This document shows positions 1 through 46,035 of a stretch of 64,000 nt of DNA, piece after piece (the first letter of the stretch is position 1; every line of letters begins with the position of its first letter). Both the position numbers and the translations under genes were made by a program. Source of the DNA: Tausonia pullulans (taxonomy: Eukaryota; Basidiomycota; Tremellomycetes; Cystofilobasidiales; Mrakiaceae); the NCBI GenBank assembly GCA_951802195.1, contig OX637633.1, positions 1 through 64,000 on the forward strand, read 5' to 3'. The notes under the pieces were generated by a model. It saw only the letters and a program-made list of their open reading frames with translations. It was not told where the DNA came from and made no database searches.

Positions 1-215
1 CCGACCCAACCTACCGACCCAACCTACCGACCCAACCTACCGACCCAACCTACCGACCCAACCTACCGACCCAACCTACCGACCCAACCTACCGACCCAA
101 CCTACCGACCCAACCTACCGACCCAACCTACCGACCCAACCTACCGACCCAACCTACCGACCCAACCTACCGACCCAACCTACCGACCCAACCTACCGAC
201 CCAACCTACCGACCT
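1..215. repeat. Perfect 13-bp tandem array at the window edge
   Basis: About 16.5 head-to-tail copies of CGACCCAACCTAC with no variant copy. The + strand is C-rich, so the complementary G-rich strand (unit GGTTGGGTCGGTA) runs 3' toward position 1, the strand polarity expected of a left chromosome end. The array ends abruptly around 211-216 inside the coding frame of the collagen-like gene. It could be a telomere-like or subtelomeric repeat, or an ordinary minisatellite that ended the assembly. The repeat is seen directly; the telomere reading is inference. Confidence 0.9.
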
Positions 216-35475: not shown

Positions 35476-35479
35476 AAAA
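35476..35479 (-). terminator. Pol III T-run after the permuted tRNA
   Basis: TTTT on the minus strand lies 12 bases past the end of the encoded 5' half, the expected place for RNA polymerase III termination. Its position supports one transcript covering the 3' half, spacer and 5' half. Confidence 0.55.
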
Positions 35480-35491
35480 GTAAAGTCTTGA

Positions 35492-35572
35492 TCAGAACCG
35501 AGTGTACTAACCATCTATACTATGCAACCAGTTTGAAAGGTCGCACCCGGACTCGAACCGAGGTCGCTCGGA
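35492..35572 (-). tRNA. Circularly permuted tRNA-Gln(CUG) gene
   Basis: Reading the minus strand, the 3' half comes first (35572-35538): T38, anticodon stem CCGAG, variable CGAC, T-arm CTCGG-TTCGAGT-CCGGG, acceptor TGCGACC and discriminator T. After 8 bases (TTCAAACT) comes the 5' half (35529-35492): acceptor GGTTGCA, D-arm with A-box TAGTATAGATGG, anticodon stem CTCGG and loop TTCTGA. Joined at 37/38, the halves give a 73-nt cloverleaf: the acceptor pairs 7/7 with one G-U, the anticodon stem pairs 5/5, the T-stem is complete and the anticodon is CUG. It closely resembles yeast tRNA-Gln. The leader base-pairs through TCAG with CTGA of the anticodon loop, as fungal tRNA introns do with the anticodon. 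No second 5' or 3' half lies in normal order on either side. Confidence 0.85.
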
Positions 35573-35599
35573 ATTCCTGACTAGTGAACGTGTCATGCC

Positions 35600-37344
35600 C
35601 TGATGGGAAGACAAAGCGTCTTATTCAGTCGGAGACCTTGCATGTTCTACGTTGGCATGCATACATTATCTGTCTGTCCAGAAAAGTATGTCTGCACTTT
35701 TGTAGCCGGTACATCAATCCACAAGGTCAGCCCAGATTTCCGACATGATGTTTCCCAGCTCCCCAGCTTCCTCTGCAACCTGGCTACCGAGCTATGACTA
35801 CCAAAGACAATCCCCCGCACTTAGCGCCTATCAAAGCCCCCCTCCGCTCCTGCTGAGATACCCGAAGTCGTCATGGAAGACTCAACCTCCGAGATAATGT
35901 CCACTCCAGTCCAAAGACAGGGCCCGAGTCGTGCGCACCCAGGTAAGGCGCCGAGGAAGGGGCTTGAGACCCTCTCTCGGCGCGGGGTATCGCTTCTCTT
36001 CACGACATTGGCCCTGCTCTAGAGACGGGTAAGGTGCTTCCCTCGCAGAAGGAGTCCTTCATGCGGCCCCAGAGGGCCTCAGGAGATGGTAAGGAGGCGA
36101 CGTCCACGGTCGCCGCACTCTCTCTCACCTTTCCACCCCCCCCCCTCTCCTCAGATCCACTACCCCACCATCCTAAGGTGTCTCGTTACCTCGATCTTGC
36201 GCCCCCCAACTGGGAGGCCTGGTGGTTGGTTGTACCTCAAGTGCTTTTACCCCTTGGAGCCTGGGGACGTCGACCTTGCCTATTACCTCTCCCTCTTCAC
36301 CCTTTATCCCTGGTGTCAGACCTATGCTCGCACGACTCACGTTCGTCACAATGCCTCTACCATTTGCGTCCTTTGCCTCGGCTGGGCCACGGAGGATTTT
36401 TACACCTCCTGGTCGAGTGTACAGTCGCATGAAAGATCTGGGCTGCCGTTACAGCACTCGTCTACTCACCCGCGTCTGGTGAGCGACCTTTGCTGCGCGG
36501 CATTGTCTGCTTGCTGGTCTCGGAACGTTCCCGCCACACTCTCCTTTTCCACATCATTGTCCCTACCCGGATCTACCTTCTCTCTTAGAGCAGAAGTTTC
36601 AGCCATATAGAGGTGCTCAGGGAGGTTAGAGCCGGCGATGATGTCGCCGAAGTTGCTCAGGAGAGTCGAAGGACGTCCCAGATGGCCACGGTGTGCGCTG
36701 AGGGTTCGCAGGCAGGCAGGGAAAAGAAGGGCCGTAGGGCGACTGAAGGGGGCCATGCCCTGAGTCCCTTAATGGTTCGGTAGTGGTATTGTTGCCAGTA
36801 CCGGGTGTTTTGGTCTTGATGGGGTTGGCGGTGGTCACGAGGGTGCGTTCCAGGTGTGTCTTGCCTGTCACCCTCTTCCCTCATCCTTCCAACCCTCCTC
36901 TCTCCCTCTTCCTCCTCGTCCCCCTCCCATAGACTACGACCGTTGTTGCAATCAAGGTACAGGTGATTCGATAATTGAAATACCAGAAGCATGAAAAGGG
37001 AATGTCGTTGGTAGTCTGCCTTTACTGGTTCAGAGCCGGCCAAGGAAAAAATGAGGCGATGAGGTACTGGGAGACATCAGAAACTGAGATGCTTTCGCCA
37101 TGGTTGGAGGAGAGGAAGGACGGAGGAGGCCCAGCTGCAGCCGCGCCTGCGCCCCCTTCCCCTCAGACGTGGCCCTGATGGACATGGGAAAACCTCTGCC
37201 TCACGTTTTCGCTACTCGACATCTTGTCCATTCTCATCCATCGATCGCAGGGCAGGGGTTCCCAAAGCGCATTCAATCTCTCCACTCTTTTTCTTCTCCG
37301 TCTTTAGCGATCTTCCTCCCGCGCTTCTCAAGGTCGGTTGGGTC
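35600..37344. other. Gene-poor stretch with unassigned open frames
   Basis: Overlapping open frames on both strands (for example 36034-36432 and 36086-36610 on +, 36657-37043 on -) carry no motif I recognise and mostly reflect C-rich composition. A + frame around 35860-36020 (EIPEVVMEDSTSEI, then MSTPVQRQGPSRAHPG) looks protein-like but is short and ends at 36022. The right part (after about 36900) is the 3' flank of CHO2. Confidence 0.4.
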
Positions 37345-40300: not shown

Positions 40301-42143
40301 TGGCGGCAGTCGAGAGGGGTCAGCCTCTCAATGACGCGTAGAAGGAAGAAAGACTCAATCAGTGCTCACGAGGGTTCTCGAACCAAAGGAGGAAGCCAAA
40401 CTGGGCGAGGTGCGCAGCGATGCTGACGTAGAGGACAGTCCACGAGGCGACGACTATGGAGAGTCCATAGAAGCCGGCATATCCAACAGAGTACCTGGAG
40501 GAAACCATCAGGTCAGGATGCATCCTCTCTCACAATGAGACGTGACGGCGCACATGGGGTGAGGCGCTAGGTTATAGACGCCATCAAAGATGAGGTCCTT
40601 CTCGAGGAGGATCCCGAAAAAGGCGTCTCCCCAGTACCAAGCGTAGTCCTTCACGACGCGATGGGCATCGACCTGAAGAAGGGAGGACGAGGAAGAGGAG
40701 GAAGCAGGCGGAGTAAGCGCTGACCCCCGGGAAAGCTCCTTGCCGGAAAAGGGAACGCGTCTCGTGCACTCCTCATCGCTCTTCCCCGCCCGCAAGTTGA
40801 AAGGCGAGTATGACAGGATACGGGGACAAGGAGGCGACCGATGAGCCCACCTGCCCATCGTTTATGGCGGCTCCTTCTCCGCCGAACCACCCGAGCGCGT
40901 TGACCTCCCCTTCCCGCTTCCTCGCAAGAGCGAGCCTTCGGCTCGATATCAGAGCAAGCGACTCACCTTGACCCAGACGTTGAAGGCGATGAGCGTCCAG
41001 CCGCCGACCCAGCGGAGGGCGTGGAAGAGGATCGATTGGTTGGACGGGAAGGAGAGGAAGGACCAAGCGAACCATGAGTACGAGACGAAGTCGCTGGGGC
41101 AAGAAGAAGCGGTCTCAGTGAGAGTATGACGATGAGAGAAGCAAGACTGTTTTGGACTCACTTGAGGAGGATGACATCGACGACCTGAAGAAAATGGGAG
41201 GAGAGAGAAATGACAAAGAGAGAGAGAGAGAAGGGTTCAGCCCCGTCAGTTCGTGCTCCGTCCTCCTCCGCGCGCGTGTCCCGTTTTCCCCTCCAGACCC
41301 AGACTTACCTGTCTAAATAGGAGCCAGACCGTGAACTCCACGGGCGTCTTCTCAAACGAGTAGCTCTCCCCGACCTTGCCCTCCAGCTCGCGTTTGCACC
41401 AAGCTGCGACGGCCGGCCGGCGCGTCGCATCGAGCCATCCACGCCGTGTGATCTCGCGGACGATGAACCGCTTGGTCGATTGCTTGCGAAGGATCCAGCC
41501 GAGGCCGACGTTGTAAGCGAGGCGGAAGACGACGAAGAGGAAGAGGAAGAGAGGCCGGGAGTAGCGAAGTGGGAGAAGAAAGAAGAGGAGGCTGGGGGAG
41601 GAGGGGGGGGGGGGGGAAGGAGGAAGAGGGAAGAGGGGCGTGATTAGAGCTTGGTTCGCTGGCACGAGCGAGGGTAAAGTAGTGCCGTGTCGTGCGCGTC
41701 TGACAGTGAAAGCGACCTCTACTCACCACTGGGATCCGAGCATGAACAACGTCAGGTAATCGAGGTGCGACTTGCGGGTGAACGGCGAGAAGAGATGGTG
41801 GATGAACGAGTGCGTTTCGGGGACGACGAAGACTAGGGGAGGGGTTCGTTGTGTGAGCATACAGGGAAAGCTACGGCCCCTTCACTTGTCGTCCCTCCCC
41901 AGCTCCAGCTGTAGTGCAACGAGACCGCGACGTACGCTGTCCTCCGGGTGTCTTGCCGAGCTGGCGGCCCTCATGCGAGCGCTGGTGGTCCTCCTGCTCG
42001 ACGGCGGCGGGGGCGGCGACGGGGATCTCGGGCTGCTTGCTACTGGTGGTCTTGCTGCTGCTGTTTCCATCGCCTACGACGGCGGCCGGGGCAACGGCTC
42101 TGCGCTGGGTGAGCTGATGGGTCTCTTTGACGGCGCTATCCAT
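37345..42143 (-). CDS. CHO2: Phosphatidylethanolamine N-methyltransferase
   Basis: ER membrane enzyme catalysing the first methylation of phosphatidylethanolamine on the way to phosphatidylcholine, with S-adenosylmethionine. Start [15 protein letters not shown] and a disordered N-terminus, then two related multi-span modules. Module 1 has [44 protein letters not shown] and [20 protein letters not shown], then [17 protein letters not shown]. Module 2 has [40 protein letters not shown] and [19 protein letters not shown]. The C-terminal beta-rich domain carries [20 protein letters not shown] and [14 protein letters not shown], and ends LNGVRAVGW. Domain order and length (about 1,000 residues) fit Cho2. 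Introns are many and short. The linker between modules is acidic and Ser-rich. Its upstream region is unusually repetitive (G-tract and GA mirror repeat). Confidence 0.93.
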
Positions 42144-42381
42144 AGCTGGAGAGGAGGGTGACGGTTGAAGGCGAACACGGAAGAACGCGAGGCGAGTGAG
42201 TCGGGCTTGGACAACCGAATCTCTCAGCATAGAGCGACGGGGGCCCCGGCGGGCGAGCCGGCGGTGTGCTCTCTTTTTCGGCTGCGGGAGACGCGGAGCG
42301 TCGGCACACCGCGTCCATGTGAAAGGAGCGGGCGGTGAGCGAAATGTGCGCCATGCGAGCAAGCGAGATCTCTTCATCAAA

Positions 42382-42407
42382 GGGGGGTGGGGGGGGGGGG
42401 GGGGGGG
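42382..42407. repeat. G-tract upstream of CHO2
   Basis: About 26 consecutive bases that are G except for one T, on the + strand, some 240 bp upstream of the CHO2 start. It could form a quadruplex on the non-template side or be a slippage-prone run. Run length may be unreliable in the assembly. Confidence 0.85.
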
Positions 42408-42540
42408 CCGGAAAGTGCATTCTTATCACATTTTGAGGAGGGAGAGGCAAGAGTTGAGGGGTTGCCCGGCGGACAAGCGAAGAGTGAGAAATCCAAACGA
42501 CGTTTATGACAGAAACAAACAAGAGGGAGAGAGGGAGGGA

Positions 42541-42682
42541 GGGAGAGAGGGAGAGAGGGAGAGAGGGAGAGAGGGAGAGAGGGAGAGAGGGAGAGAGGGA
42601 GAGAGGGAGAGAGGGAGAGAGGGAGAGAGGGAGAGAGGGAGAGAGGGAGAGAGGGAGAGAGGGAGAGAGGGAGAGAGGGAGA
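42541..42682. repeat. (GGGAGAGA)n purine mirror repeat
   Basis: About 18 near-perfect copies of GGGAGAGA. One strand is all purine, with mirror symmetry of the kind that can form triplex (H-) DNA. It lies between the bZIP stop and the CHO2 promoter. Apparent open frames through it are repeat artefacts. Confidence 0.92.
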
Positions 42683-42751
42683 GGAGAATCGTGAAGTTGT
42701 ACAACCATGGGGAGACGTGAAAGAGAAAAACCGAGGGAAGAGGCAACGCGC

Positions 42752-45700
42752 TCACGTCGCTCCGACCCAACCTCCAGGCAGGCCGTTGGCACCCCAGCTA
42801 CCGCCAACACCGTTGCCATCCCCTCTGCTCGTGCTGGCTCCAGCAGAAGAAGCCGCCGCGGCCGCTGCCGCCTTGCCCGCTGCGATGAGCCGGCCGACCT
42901 CGTCCCGGCCAACGAGGGCGACGTCCTTGCGCCGGACGCCGACCTCGAGCTCGAGATCGAGACGGACAAAGGTGGCATTGTCCGCGCGAAGGAGAAGAGC
43001 CGCCTCCTCAGACATCGTCAAGGGCTGGGAGGAAGGCGAGAGAGATGCAGACGAGGAGGGCGAGGCGGAAGAAGGGAGGGTGAGGAGCGGGGCCGCCCGG
43101 AGAAGCTTCGGCGTCGTCGGCTCCGACTCGACGTTGGTCTCCTCGGCCTGCGAGGTTACCGGAGCGTTGGAGGACGAGACGCTGCCATCCTGCAAGCTGA
43201 GGGCGACGTCGTCGAGCTCCATCCGCTCGAGCGGTCGGCCGTCCCAGGCTTTGAGCTCCTTGCCCGTCGGCGTATCCTCCTCGGCAGAGGAGGTCGCGTA
43301 GTTGTCGTCGTAGTCGACTATATCGCCCTCCGAAGAATCCACGACGAACCAACCCGGCTCGCTGCCCGAAGGCACCGTGTTCGCCCCCGATGGGTCGAGG
43401 AGCGAGAGACCGAGCCATCGCTCGAGGACGTCATCGACGCCGTCCGTCGTCTGATGCGGAGACGGACGTCCGCCGTTGACGAGCGAGGCCGACGACGGGA
43501 CGGGCCGGAGGAGGGTGAGTGAGAAGGATCGGCGGGCAGCGGCGGCGTTGGAAAGCGATGCCGGAAGAGCAAGCGTCGAGCCGAGCGTCCAGCGGGCGCC
43601 GCCAACGACATCGCTCTCCTCATCGTCCTCGTCCTCGCCCGAGGAAGGCGAAGAGATCTTGCCGTGGCGACGGTGATCTCCGTCGTGGCACGTTCCGGTA
43701 GTGGAGGTCGTGGTGTTGGTGGCGTCGGTGATCTCGCAGACGCCCATCTCGACGTCCTCGTCGCCGTGCTCGGAGGAGTCGGCGGCGGCGGCCTTGCGGA
43801 GCTCCTTGAGGTTGGCCGGGACGCCACCCGCACCGCCAGACTGGAGGACCCGGCCGAGATAGGAGGGGAACGTCGCCGACGTGGGCGAGTGAGACGTCCG
43901 GAGCGGGAGGCTTGAGATCGTGCCCGGCGGGAGGGTGAAGAGAGCAAAGGAGAAGAGGATGACCTAGACAAAGCCCACAATCGAGAGGTCAGCCCGAACA
44001 GAACGACAGGTCGAGGGAAAGAGTCCAACTCACCATGAGGGCGACACCGCCGACGCGCTTACCCTCCTTGTCTCGTTGGTTCTTGCCGGCGAGGAGCCTC
44101 CGGCCGTGGCCAAGCTCGAGACCGAGGGGCGCCGACGAGTGGTGCCCGTGATGGCGACGGCCAGCGCCTACGAGGTGGTGGTGGTGGCCGTCGTCATCAT
44201 CATCATCGTCGTCGTCGTCATCGTCGTCGAGCATGCCCGTGTTGAGCATCGGGCTCAGCGAGGAGGCCGACGAGGCCGCGTTCTTCTGGTTGTTGGCGCC
44301 GCCGCTGCCATCAAGCTGGGCCCGGAGGCTGGCGATCTCGACGTTGAGGGCAGCCTCGCGCGACTGCGAGGCGTGGAGGAGGCCGCGAAGATTGACGAGG
44401 TCCTGCTGGAGGTTGGACAGCTGGAGCGGGTCGACCGCGGGGGGCGACGAGGGAGGGGGAGGAGCGGCGGCAGCAGGAGTGGGCAGCTTGGGCGAGGCCG
44501 TCGGCTTAGAGGCGAGGAGGCTCTTGAGGTGCTCGTTCTCCTCCTTGAGGGCCTTGCACTCGATCTCGAGCTCATCAAACTGCTCGCGCTTCCTGTGGAA
44601 GGAGTGGGGGCGCGGGTTGGTCAGTCGGCGGCTTCACACCCAGAGACAGGAGGAGACAAGAGTGACTGAGGACCACGCACCTCTGCCGAGAGAGGAAGGC
44701 CGCGGCGCGGTTCTTGACGAGCCTCGCCTCCTTCTTGCTGAGGCCCGATGTGTCCGGGTGCTGGAACTCGGCGGTCGTCGGCAGCTGCTTGCGCTTCTTG
44801 CCCTTCCCTGTGAGCTGCTTCGTCGCGGCAGCGGGAGCGAATGGGCCGGACAAGGCAGCAGCGGCGGTGTCGACCTCCTGAAGGGCCTCTGGCCCGGGCG
44901 AGCCACCGCAAGAGGAGGCGGCCTGGGAGAGAGCGTACGGGTTGATGGACGCTGAGTGCGGGGTCGAGGACCGGCGGATGCGCTTGTTGGAGATGCCGTC
45001 CGACGAGGGCGGCGTGTCCGGGAGGGACGAGTAGTGCGACGAGGGGGAGGGGGATGCGCCCGAGGCGGAGAAGGCGGGCGTCGTCTGGGCGGCGTAGACG
45101 GCGGTGGCGGATGTGGTGGGAGAGACCGTCGCCTGCGGGCCGGTGCTGCTGAAGCTGGATGCGGGGGTGGTGCTCAGAGCAGCATGCGCGGCCACGGTCG
45201 AGGAGTGCAGGTGTGAGTGAGGCGAGAAGGCGGCTGCGGCCGGGTCGAACGAGGCATGGAAGCCGGAGAGCGGGGCTGGCAGGCAGGGACAAGAATGTGA
45301 AGATGCGAGGTCAGCACCGAAGACCCAGCAAGAAAGGAGAGGCGTGCGGGCCGAGGCGCAGACGGAGGATCGATCCAGAGCCAGAGTGCGAGAGGCGTGC
45401 GGGCGGGCGGCCGGCTCTACTAGACTGGGTTCTCCGCCTGCCCTGCTCCCAGCCTGGATGTGTGTGCCGTGCCCGAGGACGGGACATGGGGCGACCACGC
45501 TCTGGGCTCGCCCCGCCGGAGCTAGTTCGGTGGCGACAAAAAACGGCCCAGGAGCGGAGTCTGGAAAGGGAGACTAGCTCGTGCTCTGCTCGTGCTTCGC
45601 CTCCCGCCGCCGGCCCGCGTGGGTGGGCGTCGTCCCGCCTGGGGAGCAGGTGGCGGGGGGCCTTCCCGTCCTGTCACCGCCCTTGGTCGCTCCCTCGTCG

Positions 45701-46035
45701 CCCCCCCCCCCCTCCCCCCGTCGCACGTCGTCGCACGACGGAGGGCACTGCCAGACGGAGAAGACGTCTCGCTCGCCGCACTCACCGACATCCATCAGCT
45801 CGATGCCCATCGTCGGGGGCACATACCCCGGCCCGGCGTGGCTGAGGGCAGCGGCGACGTCGAGGTCGTCGCCGCCAAAGGCGAAGTCGTGCCCGTGGTC
45901 GAGCGGCGGATAGCCCTCCCAGCCATGGCCGTCGCCGTCGCCCAGGTCGAAGGCGGCCTGCGGGTGGTCGTCTGCGCCGTCGTCGAGGTGGTAGTCCGGC
46001 GAGGCGAGCAGCTCGGAGAAGTCGAGGGAGGCCAT
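42752..46035 (-). CDS. Membrane-anchored bZIP transcription factor
   Basis: Exon 1 (MASLDFSELLASPDYHLDD) is acidic, an activation-domain-like start. The bZIP region reads LSKKEARLVKNRAAAFLSRQ with an intron in the next Arg codon, then KREQFDELEIECKALKEENE, HLKSLLASKP: basic region plus leucine heptads. After a run of about 13 Asp and a His-rich patch comes a single hydrophobic segment VALMVILFSFALFTLPPG, then a long acidic, Ser-rich C-terminal region (about 380 residues) ending GGWVGAT. One transmembrane span downstream of the zipper is the layout of ATF6/CREB3-type factors released from membranes by proteolysis; regulated cleavage here is inferred. Introns lie at 45276-45785 (510 bp, very long for this locus), about 44594-44695 and about 43965-44033. 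Confidence 0.8.

Follow-up and report, generated by a model that had tools for sequence, protein, structure and literature searches.

On the minus strand of Tausonia pullulans contig OX637633.1, the two halves of a glutamine tRNA gene are encoded in reversed order, so that a leader is followed by the 3' half, a spacer, the 5' half and a trailer (Table 1). The locus lies in what is called the window below, that is, the whole 64,000-nucleotide stretch of DNA that was analysed (bases 1-64000 of contig 14, C14). Joining the halves at position 37/38 gives a 73-nt tRNA-Gln with the anticodon CTG, which is named tRNA-Gln(ctg) by ARAGORN. Read from the sequence, the joined molecule has an acceptor stem of 7 bp, a D stem of 4 bp, and anticodon and T stems of 5 bp each, and it carries GG at 18-19, T33 and A37. 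An earlier reading of the letters without database searches (the sequence-only reading) had proposed the permuted order, the coordinates of both halves and of the spacer, a complete tRNA-Gln(CUG) on joining, a B box lying 5' of the A box, and a TTTT beyond the locus. Every coordinate was confirmed on the minus strand, all stems of the joined tRNA are paired, and the boxes and the T run are where they had been placed.

Table 1. Features of the permuted tRNA-Gln(CUG) locus, in window positions and in the order in which they begin on the minus strand
Feature	Position	Strand	Basis or remark
Leader stretch GTCAGGA, able to pair with the anticodon loop (32:-3 register)	35575..35581	-	Fold with imposed stems; register test
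tRNA-Gln(CUG) 3' half, encoded first	35538..35572	-	35 nt, tRNA nt 38-73; acceptor 3' strand TGCGACC plus discriminator T
B-box sequence GGTTCGAGTCC, 5' of the A box	35549..35559	-	Read from sequence
Spacer, tRNA 3' end to tRNA 5' end	35530..35537	-	8 nt
tRNA-Gln(CUG) 5' half, encoded second	35492..35529	-	38 nt, tRNA nt 1-37; terminates in anticodon CTG plus A37
A-box sequence TAGTATAGATGG	35511..35522	-	Read from sequence
Anticodon-loop nt 32-37 plus trailer +1, pairing with the leader stretch	35491..35497	-	Fold with imposed stems; register test
TTTT, candidate Pol III terminator	35476..35479	-	12 nt past the 5' half; sequence

As encoded, the window yielded no tRNA call, either by ARAGORN or by Rfam at gathering cut-offs. 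As a chance control, 81-nt pieces were taken from the window every 4 nt on both strands and circularized. Among 31,960 such pieces ARAGORN made 18 calls: 12 fell at this locus, four of them as Gln(ctg) and the remainder off-register under other names, and six at two other places.

Genome and window context

The genome that was searched comprises 23,855,473 bases in 21 contigs. This is the size expected for the 20 chromosomes together with the mitogenome; some 37 kb of the published assembly, not placed on chromosomes, apparently lie outside it. A fungal nuclear origin of the window had been claimed and is confirmed. T. pullulans is a basidiomycete yeast (Tremellomycetes, Cystofilobasidiales, Mrakiaceae), and the window's copper amine oxidase (exons stitched by eye) agrees, being 76% identical to that of Mrakia frigida, with Mycena next at 67%. 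In a search with the mitochondrial cox1, the named species among the best 120 of 8000 matches are, we presume, all basidiomycetes. The mitochondrial contig, C21, has 18,821 bp, the length also given for the T. pullulans mitogenome in the available part of its description (PMC12749792). The published gfTauPull1.1 assembly is described, in the part of the genome note that was accessible, as 20 chromosomes with a span of 23,873,987 bp, a longest scaffold of 2,178,134 bp and an N90 of 647,864 bp (PMC11803393).

The contig opens with 16.5 perfect copies of the 13-bp unit CCGACCCAACCTA at window positions 1-214, in telomere position. A 13-bp telomere unit would be unusual next to the short TTAGGG-type repeats known from fungi. 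A 20-copy array of AGAGGGAG is found at 42522-42683. The surrounding DNA, at about 42000-46000, is rich in G+C (rising to 65-69%), with overlapping open frames on the two strands. Two relatives of protein P0001 were found, covering 25% and 13% of it.

A family of 21 permuted genes

A 125-base query from the window gave 32 genome matches, which resolve into 21 loci including the window copy. Likewise, a D-arm pattern allowing up to two mismatches matched 21 genome sites, against three in a backward control, and all 21 show the permuted order at 37/38, their spacers being 4-46 nt long. A pattern for the 3' half allowing up to three mismatches also returned 21 sites, every one of them without a mismatch to CCGAGCRACCTCGGTTCGAGTCCGGG, and none in the backward control. 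Compared with the D-arm sites, each of these 3' halves belongs to one of the 21 permuted loci, and this whole-genome search left no orphan, unpaired or decayed half, and no 3' half with one to three mismatches. The loci are spread over seven contigs: one on C1, three on C11, three on C12, the window copy on C14, two on C16, two on C17 and nine on C18. ARAGORN recognizes tRNA-Gln(CTG) in all 21 sequences once they are circularized and in none as encoded (0/21), and it names all three mature types tRNA-Gln(ctg). The arrangement is beyond chance because the same one is carried by 21 loci. The original observation is thereby confirmed, and the genome-wide search that the sequence-only reading had suggested makes it larger in extent than first described. 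An exact 31-mer comparison with viral contigs gave no match.

In all 21 loci a run of at least four T begins 7-17 nt past the 5' half. In four of them (C17:580601, C18:75021, C18:167856 and C18:218087) TTTT also spans the border between leader and position 38, the 3' splice site, where it could cause an early Pol III stop. No common TATA box was found when the 21 upstream stretches were compared by eye, beside the upstream regions of ordinary tRNA genes. In several families (C11, C12:966175, C18:120357, C18:121584 and other copies) TGTCTGT-like stretches were noticed, again by eye, some 25-45 bases 5' of the 3' half; they are possibly a promoter element or a sign of shared ancestry.

The region C18:75000-218200 contains 9 of the 21 permuted genes, in duplicated-looking blocks. 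Ordinary intron-containing tRNA genes adjoin several of these. ARAGORN names some of them Tyr and others Ala and SeC, the latter two being presumably Pro and His.

Conservation and covariation

All 21 loci share the same 31 nt between T8 and A37, which make up the D/anticodon part of the tRNA. Three mature forms exist, represented by 5, 15 and 1 loci, the differences lying in the acceptor stem and at one variable-loop base. The acceptor-stem versions are GGTTGCA/TGCGACC (5 loci), GGCGGTG/CACTGCC (15 loci) and GGTGGCA/TGCTACC (1 locus), each pairing at 7 of 7 positions when G-U pairs are counted. When strands are swapped between versions, only 4-6 of the 7 pairs form. Both sides have changed at 3:70 (U-A/C-G), 6:67 (C-G/U-A) and 7:66 (A-U/G-C), and pair 4:69 switches between U-G and G-U.

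Outside the tRNA, the copies diverge. When 11 flank classes are compared without gaps, in 55 pairs, identity reaches 0.94 for the body, compared with 0.29 for the leader (its last 20 bases) and 0.44 for the trailer (its first 10); conservation therefore falls off at 37/38. A generic covariance model of permuted tRNAs (R2) was built from ten rows, seven of them ordinary T. pullulans tRNAs permuted in silico and three from the Gln family. It scores all 21 loci at 63-75 bits, against 37 bits for the next match, half of which lies on an ordinary tRNA-Trp; the gap is partly by construction, since 3 of the 10 training rows are Gln. In the window, the permuted locus was the sole match to this model up to E 10 (57 of 112 sources, many of the rest overlapping).

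Splice-like ends and predicted processing

The sequence-only reading had noted that TCAG in the leader can pair with CTGA of the anticodon loop. With the four tRNA stems of the window copy imposed, this helix is present and longer, at 7 bp, and leaves three nucleotides (-2, -1 and 38) at the 3' site. Among 18 registers compared over 14 distinct leaders of the family, the canonical intron register, which sets leader positions -3 to -8 against nt 32-37, is the best paired, with a mean of 3.64 of 6 and 3.14 for the next best. This register (32:-3) totals 51 pairs, against 34.6 in shuffled leaders, and none of 5000 shuffles reached 51, although the test overstates the strength of the signal because several leaders are related. 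At position -3, 12 loci have T, 7 have A and 2 have G, so that the 32:-3 combination, the site of the A-I pair, is U-U in 12 of 21, which counts against a strict A-I pair. Position -1 is a pyrimidine in all 21 loci (T in 14, C in 7). All 21 loci have A as trailer base +3 (window position 35489), though the trailers otherwise differ and A makes up 0.19 of later bases; it possibly has a role in splice-site recognition.

Unconstrained RNA folding was discarded as proof of the cloverleaf, as alternative CTCGG pairing dominates. Of the 21 precursors, one showed all four stems and 16 had an acceptor stem of 6-7 pairs; the anticodon and T stems each have a CTCGG strand, and competition between the two accounts for the poor folding.

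These features suggest a route by which the permuted Gln genes would become working tRNAs, probably after splicing into a circle. One transcript would run through leader, 3' half, spacer, 5' half and trailer and end at the T run. The anticodon stem (39-43/27-31) would close, and leader and trailer would protrude from its loop as intron ends do. Cuts at 37 and 38 by the tRNA-splicing endonuclease (Sen complex) would come next, and Trl1 ligase would close the two halves to a circle. The spacer, in the window copy as in the others, would be excised from the acceptor loop by RNase P and RNase Z; addition of CCA and charging would follow. An equivalent route has been described for algal permuted tRNAs, namely endonuclease cleavage at the anticodon-loop junction, a circle, spacer removal by RNase P and RNase Z, and CCA addition, in the accessible part of a review (PMC3978253).

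Candidate enzymes are encoded in the genome. The splicing-endonuclease domain PF01974 scores above cut-off at C1:1290511 and C7:866660, in both cases partially (profile positions 3-43 and 7-35 of 85), and the first match has an internal stop. Among 14 control genomes, matches to this profile occurred in the four archaea. The Trl1-type ligase domain PF08302 is found at C6:344037 with an E value of 3.3e-16, covering profile positions 13-244 of 250, and had no match in the same 14 control genomes, all prokaryotes.

Ordinary glutamine tRNA genes and other isotypes

The joined 73-nt tRNA was used as a query for ordinary genes; it gave 31 genome matches, none spanning both halves (one extends two bases beyond the join). 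A D-arm pattern returned the 21 permuted sites and 13 copies of another D-arm-like sequence, and a pattern running from the D arm to the anticodon (YTG) matched only the 21 permuted sites, with none in the control. The count of ordinary tRNA-Gln(CUG) genes, another check that had been suggested, thus came to none with these searches; genes whose D arm diverges could escape the patterns, some 37 kb of the published assembly apparently lie beyond the genome searched, and the tRNA census is incomplete because the Rfam search (RF00005) scored 63 of 897 candidates.

A pattern for an ordinary Gln(UUG) gene matched neither the genome nor the control, and the D-arm/anticodon YTG pattern revealed none either. 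A tRNA of this kind is expected to be needed for CAA codons. One presumed open frame and eight copper amine oxidase exons together contain 14 CAA and 16 CAG codons. The Gln(UUG) gene may be of unusual form.

Permuted genes of other isotypes were sought with a pattern of B box, 20-50 bases and A box. It had 32 matches, against 7 in a backward control, and 19 of them are the Gln(CUG) family, the two C16 copies being missed because their spacers are too long. Eleven of the 13 non-family matches were read, those on C20 and the mitochondrial C21 being left out. Four on C6 were rejected as ordinary intron-containing tRNA-Tyr followed by other sequence, and seven further ones as not tRNA-like by eye. 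Since the pattern covers B boxes of one form and spacers of about 1-31 nt, other permuted isotypes may yet exist in T. pullulans.

Interpretation of the locus

The window locus is best explained as one of 21 functional, circularly permuted nuclear tRNA-Gln(CUG) genes of type II, with the junction at 37/38, matured via a circular intermediate; a probability of about 0.92 is assigned to this reading. A tRNA might instead be assembled in trans, from the 5' half of one copy and the 3' half of another, either as a tRNA with a very long intron spanning neighbours in the C18, C16 and C11 clusters or as a split tRNA, and without a circle. At C18 loci, same-strand neighbours do let ARAGORN assemble tRNA-Gln, the introns being 769 and 1125 nt long. 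However, the window copy is the sole one found on C14, C1 has a single copy and the three on C12 are more than 60 kb apart. Joining in cis is also favoured because the acceptor strands match within each locus, at 7 of 7 positions, but at only 4-6 of 7 across types, and assembly in trans is accordingly considered very improbable.

The copies could also be dead tRNA-derived sequences or by-products, such as reintegrated circular tRNA precursors, from which no tRNA is made. Some loci are indeed recent duplicates with common flanks. Against this, decay, which the sequence-only reading had named as a warning sign if seen in relatives, was seen in none of the 21 T. pullulans loci: no 3' half carries one to three mismatches, the D/anticodon part does not vary, and the acceptor changes are compensatory. 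Nor did the incomplete census reveal an ordinary gene that could supply this tRNA instead. This explanation is given even less weight than assembly in trans. A reversal of the two halves during assembly, another concern raised at the outset, has a negligible probability. The BUSCO completeness of 29.9% in the assembly paper might be cited in its favour, with nothing specific to the locus, and has no bearing on base order within a locus. The flanks and spacers of the 21 loci fall into at least 11 classes, and the same paper, in its accessible part, reports 458-fold HiFi coverage, a QV of 71.1 and k-mer completeness of 100% (PMC11803393).

Relation to known permuted tRNA genes

The permuted tRNA-Gln(CTG) of Cyanidioschyzon merolae was reportedly described by Soma in 2007, the permuted genes of prasinophytes and of the Bigelowiella natans nucleomorph are said to have been described by Maruyama in 2010, and those of Thermofilum pendens reportedly by Chan in 2011. 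In the portion of a review that was available, 34 permuted tRNA genes are tallied from six unicellular algae and one archaeon, including the type II Gln(CTG) of C. merolae, and their physiological significance and development are called unclear (PMC3978253). Genes of the trebouxiophyte green alga Auxenochlorella, found via an incomplete tRNAscan-SE set, were added after that review (PMC12633428, likewise available in part). Permuted tRNA genes are a known kind, the described cases found in these sources being algal (nucleus or nucleomorph) plus one archaeon. Of the defining features that sequence can show, the T. pullulans loci have the gene order and the complete tRNA in full, and a splice-like (BHB/hBH) junction and a gene free of internal terminators only in part.

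The following comparisons rest on the same portion of the review (PMC3978253). The closest likeness is to Gln(CTG) of C. merolae, which is the same isoacceptor, of type II, with its junction at 37/38. Both have a spacer linking the acceptor ends (31 nt in C. merolae, 8 nt in the T. pullulans window copy), a downstream T run and terminal pairing of a splice-like kind, in T. pullulans with U-U at 32:-3 in 12 of 21 loci. C. merolae, however, is a red alga with one Gln(CTG) gene in the table, whereas T. pullulans is a fungus with 21 copies. Most permuted genes of C. merolae have a TATA-like upstream element, of which none was seen by eye in T. pullulans, and homologues of TFC1/TFC3 were not identified in the alga. 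The circular intermediate has been demonstrated for algal permuted tRNAs and is predicted for the T. pullulans family. In prasinophytes and the B. natans nucleomorph, all but one of the genes are of type II, with an hBH motif at 37/38 and spacers of 5-64 nt. Their isotypes are Ser, Cys, Leu, iMet, Arg and Asn, Gln being absent from the list, with one gene per anticodon and species except for Ser(CGA) in O. tauri. In T. pendens the 3' half precedes the 5' half, as in T. pullulans, but this organism is an archaeon, the junction is at 59/60, and the circular intermediate is called unclear (PMC3978253).

No permuted tRNA gene from a fungus was found in the open literature, which was covered mostly at the level of titles and abstracts, with subscription papers largely outside; this agrees with the sequence-only reading, which knew of none. 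The word 'tRNA' does not occur in the main text of the Tausonia genome note, which names a PolyA RNA-seq run, ERR11242559 (PMC11803393).

Significance

A family of 21 copies in an opisthokont means that the permuted arrangement can arise and spread where tRNA promoters are believed to require the A box ahead of the B box. Its three acceptor-stem versions and varied flanks make transcription, splice-site rules and the predicted circular intermediate directly testable in this yeast. As ARAGORN misses these genes as encoded, other fungi merit rescanning, above all those that seem to be without an isoacceptor.

Tentatively, and with somewhat less than an even chance of being right, it is proposed that permuted genes have wholly replaced ordinary Gln(CUG) genes, perhaps across the order, so that this isoacceptor would be produced entirely through circular RNA and transcribed by Pol III with the B box 5' of the A box; the Gln(UUG) gene may be disrupted as well. 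If this is true, the whole of glutamine decoding would depend on RNA circularization.
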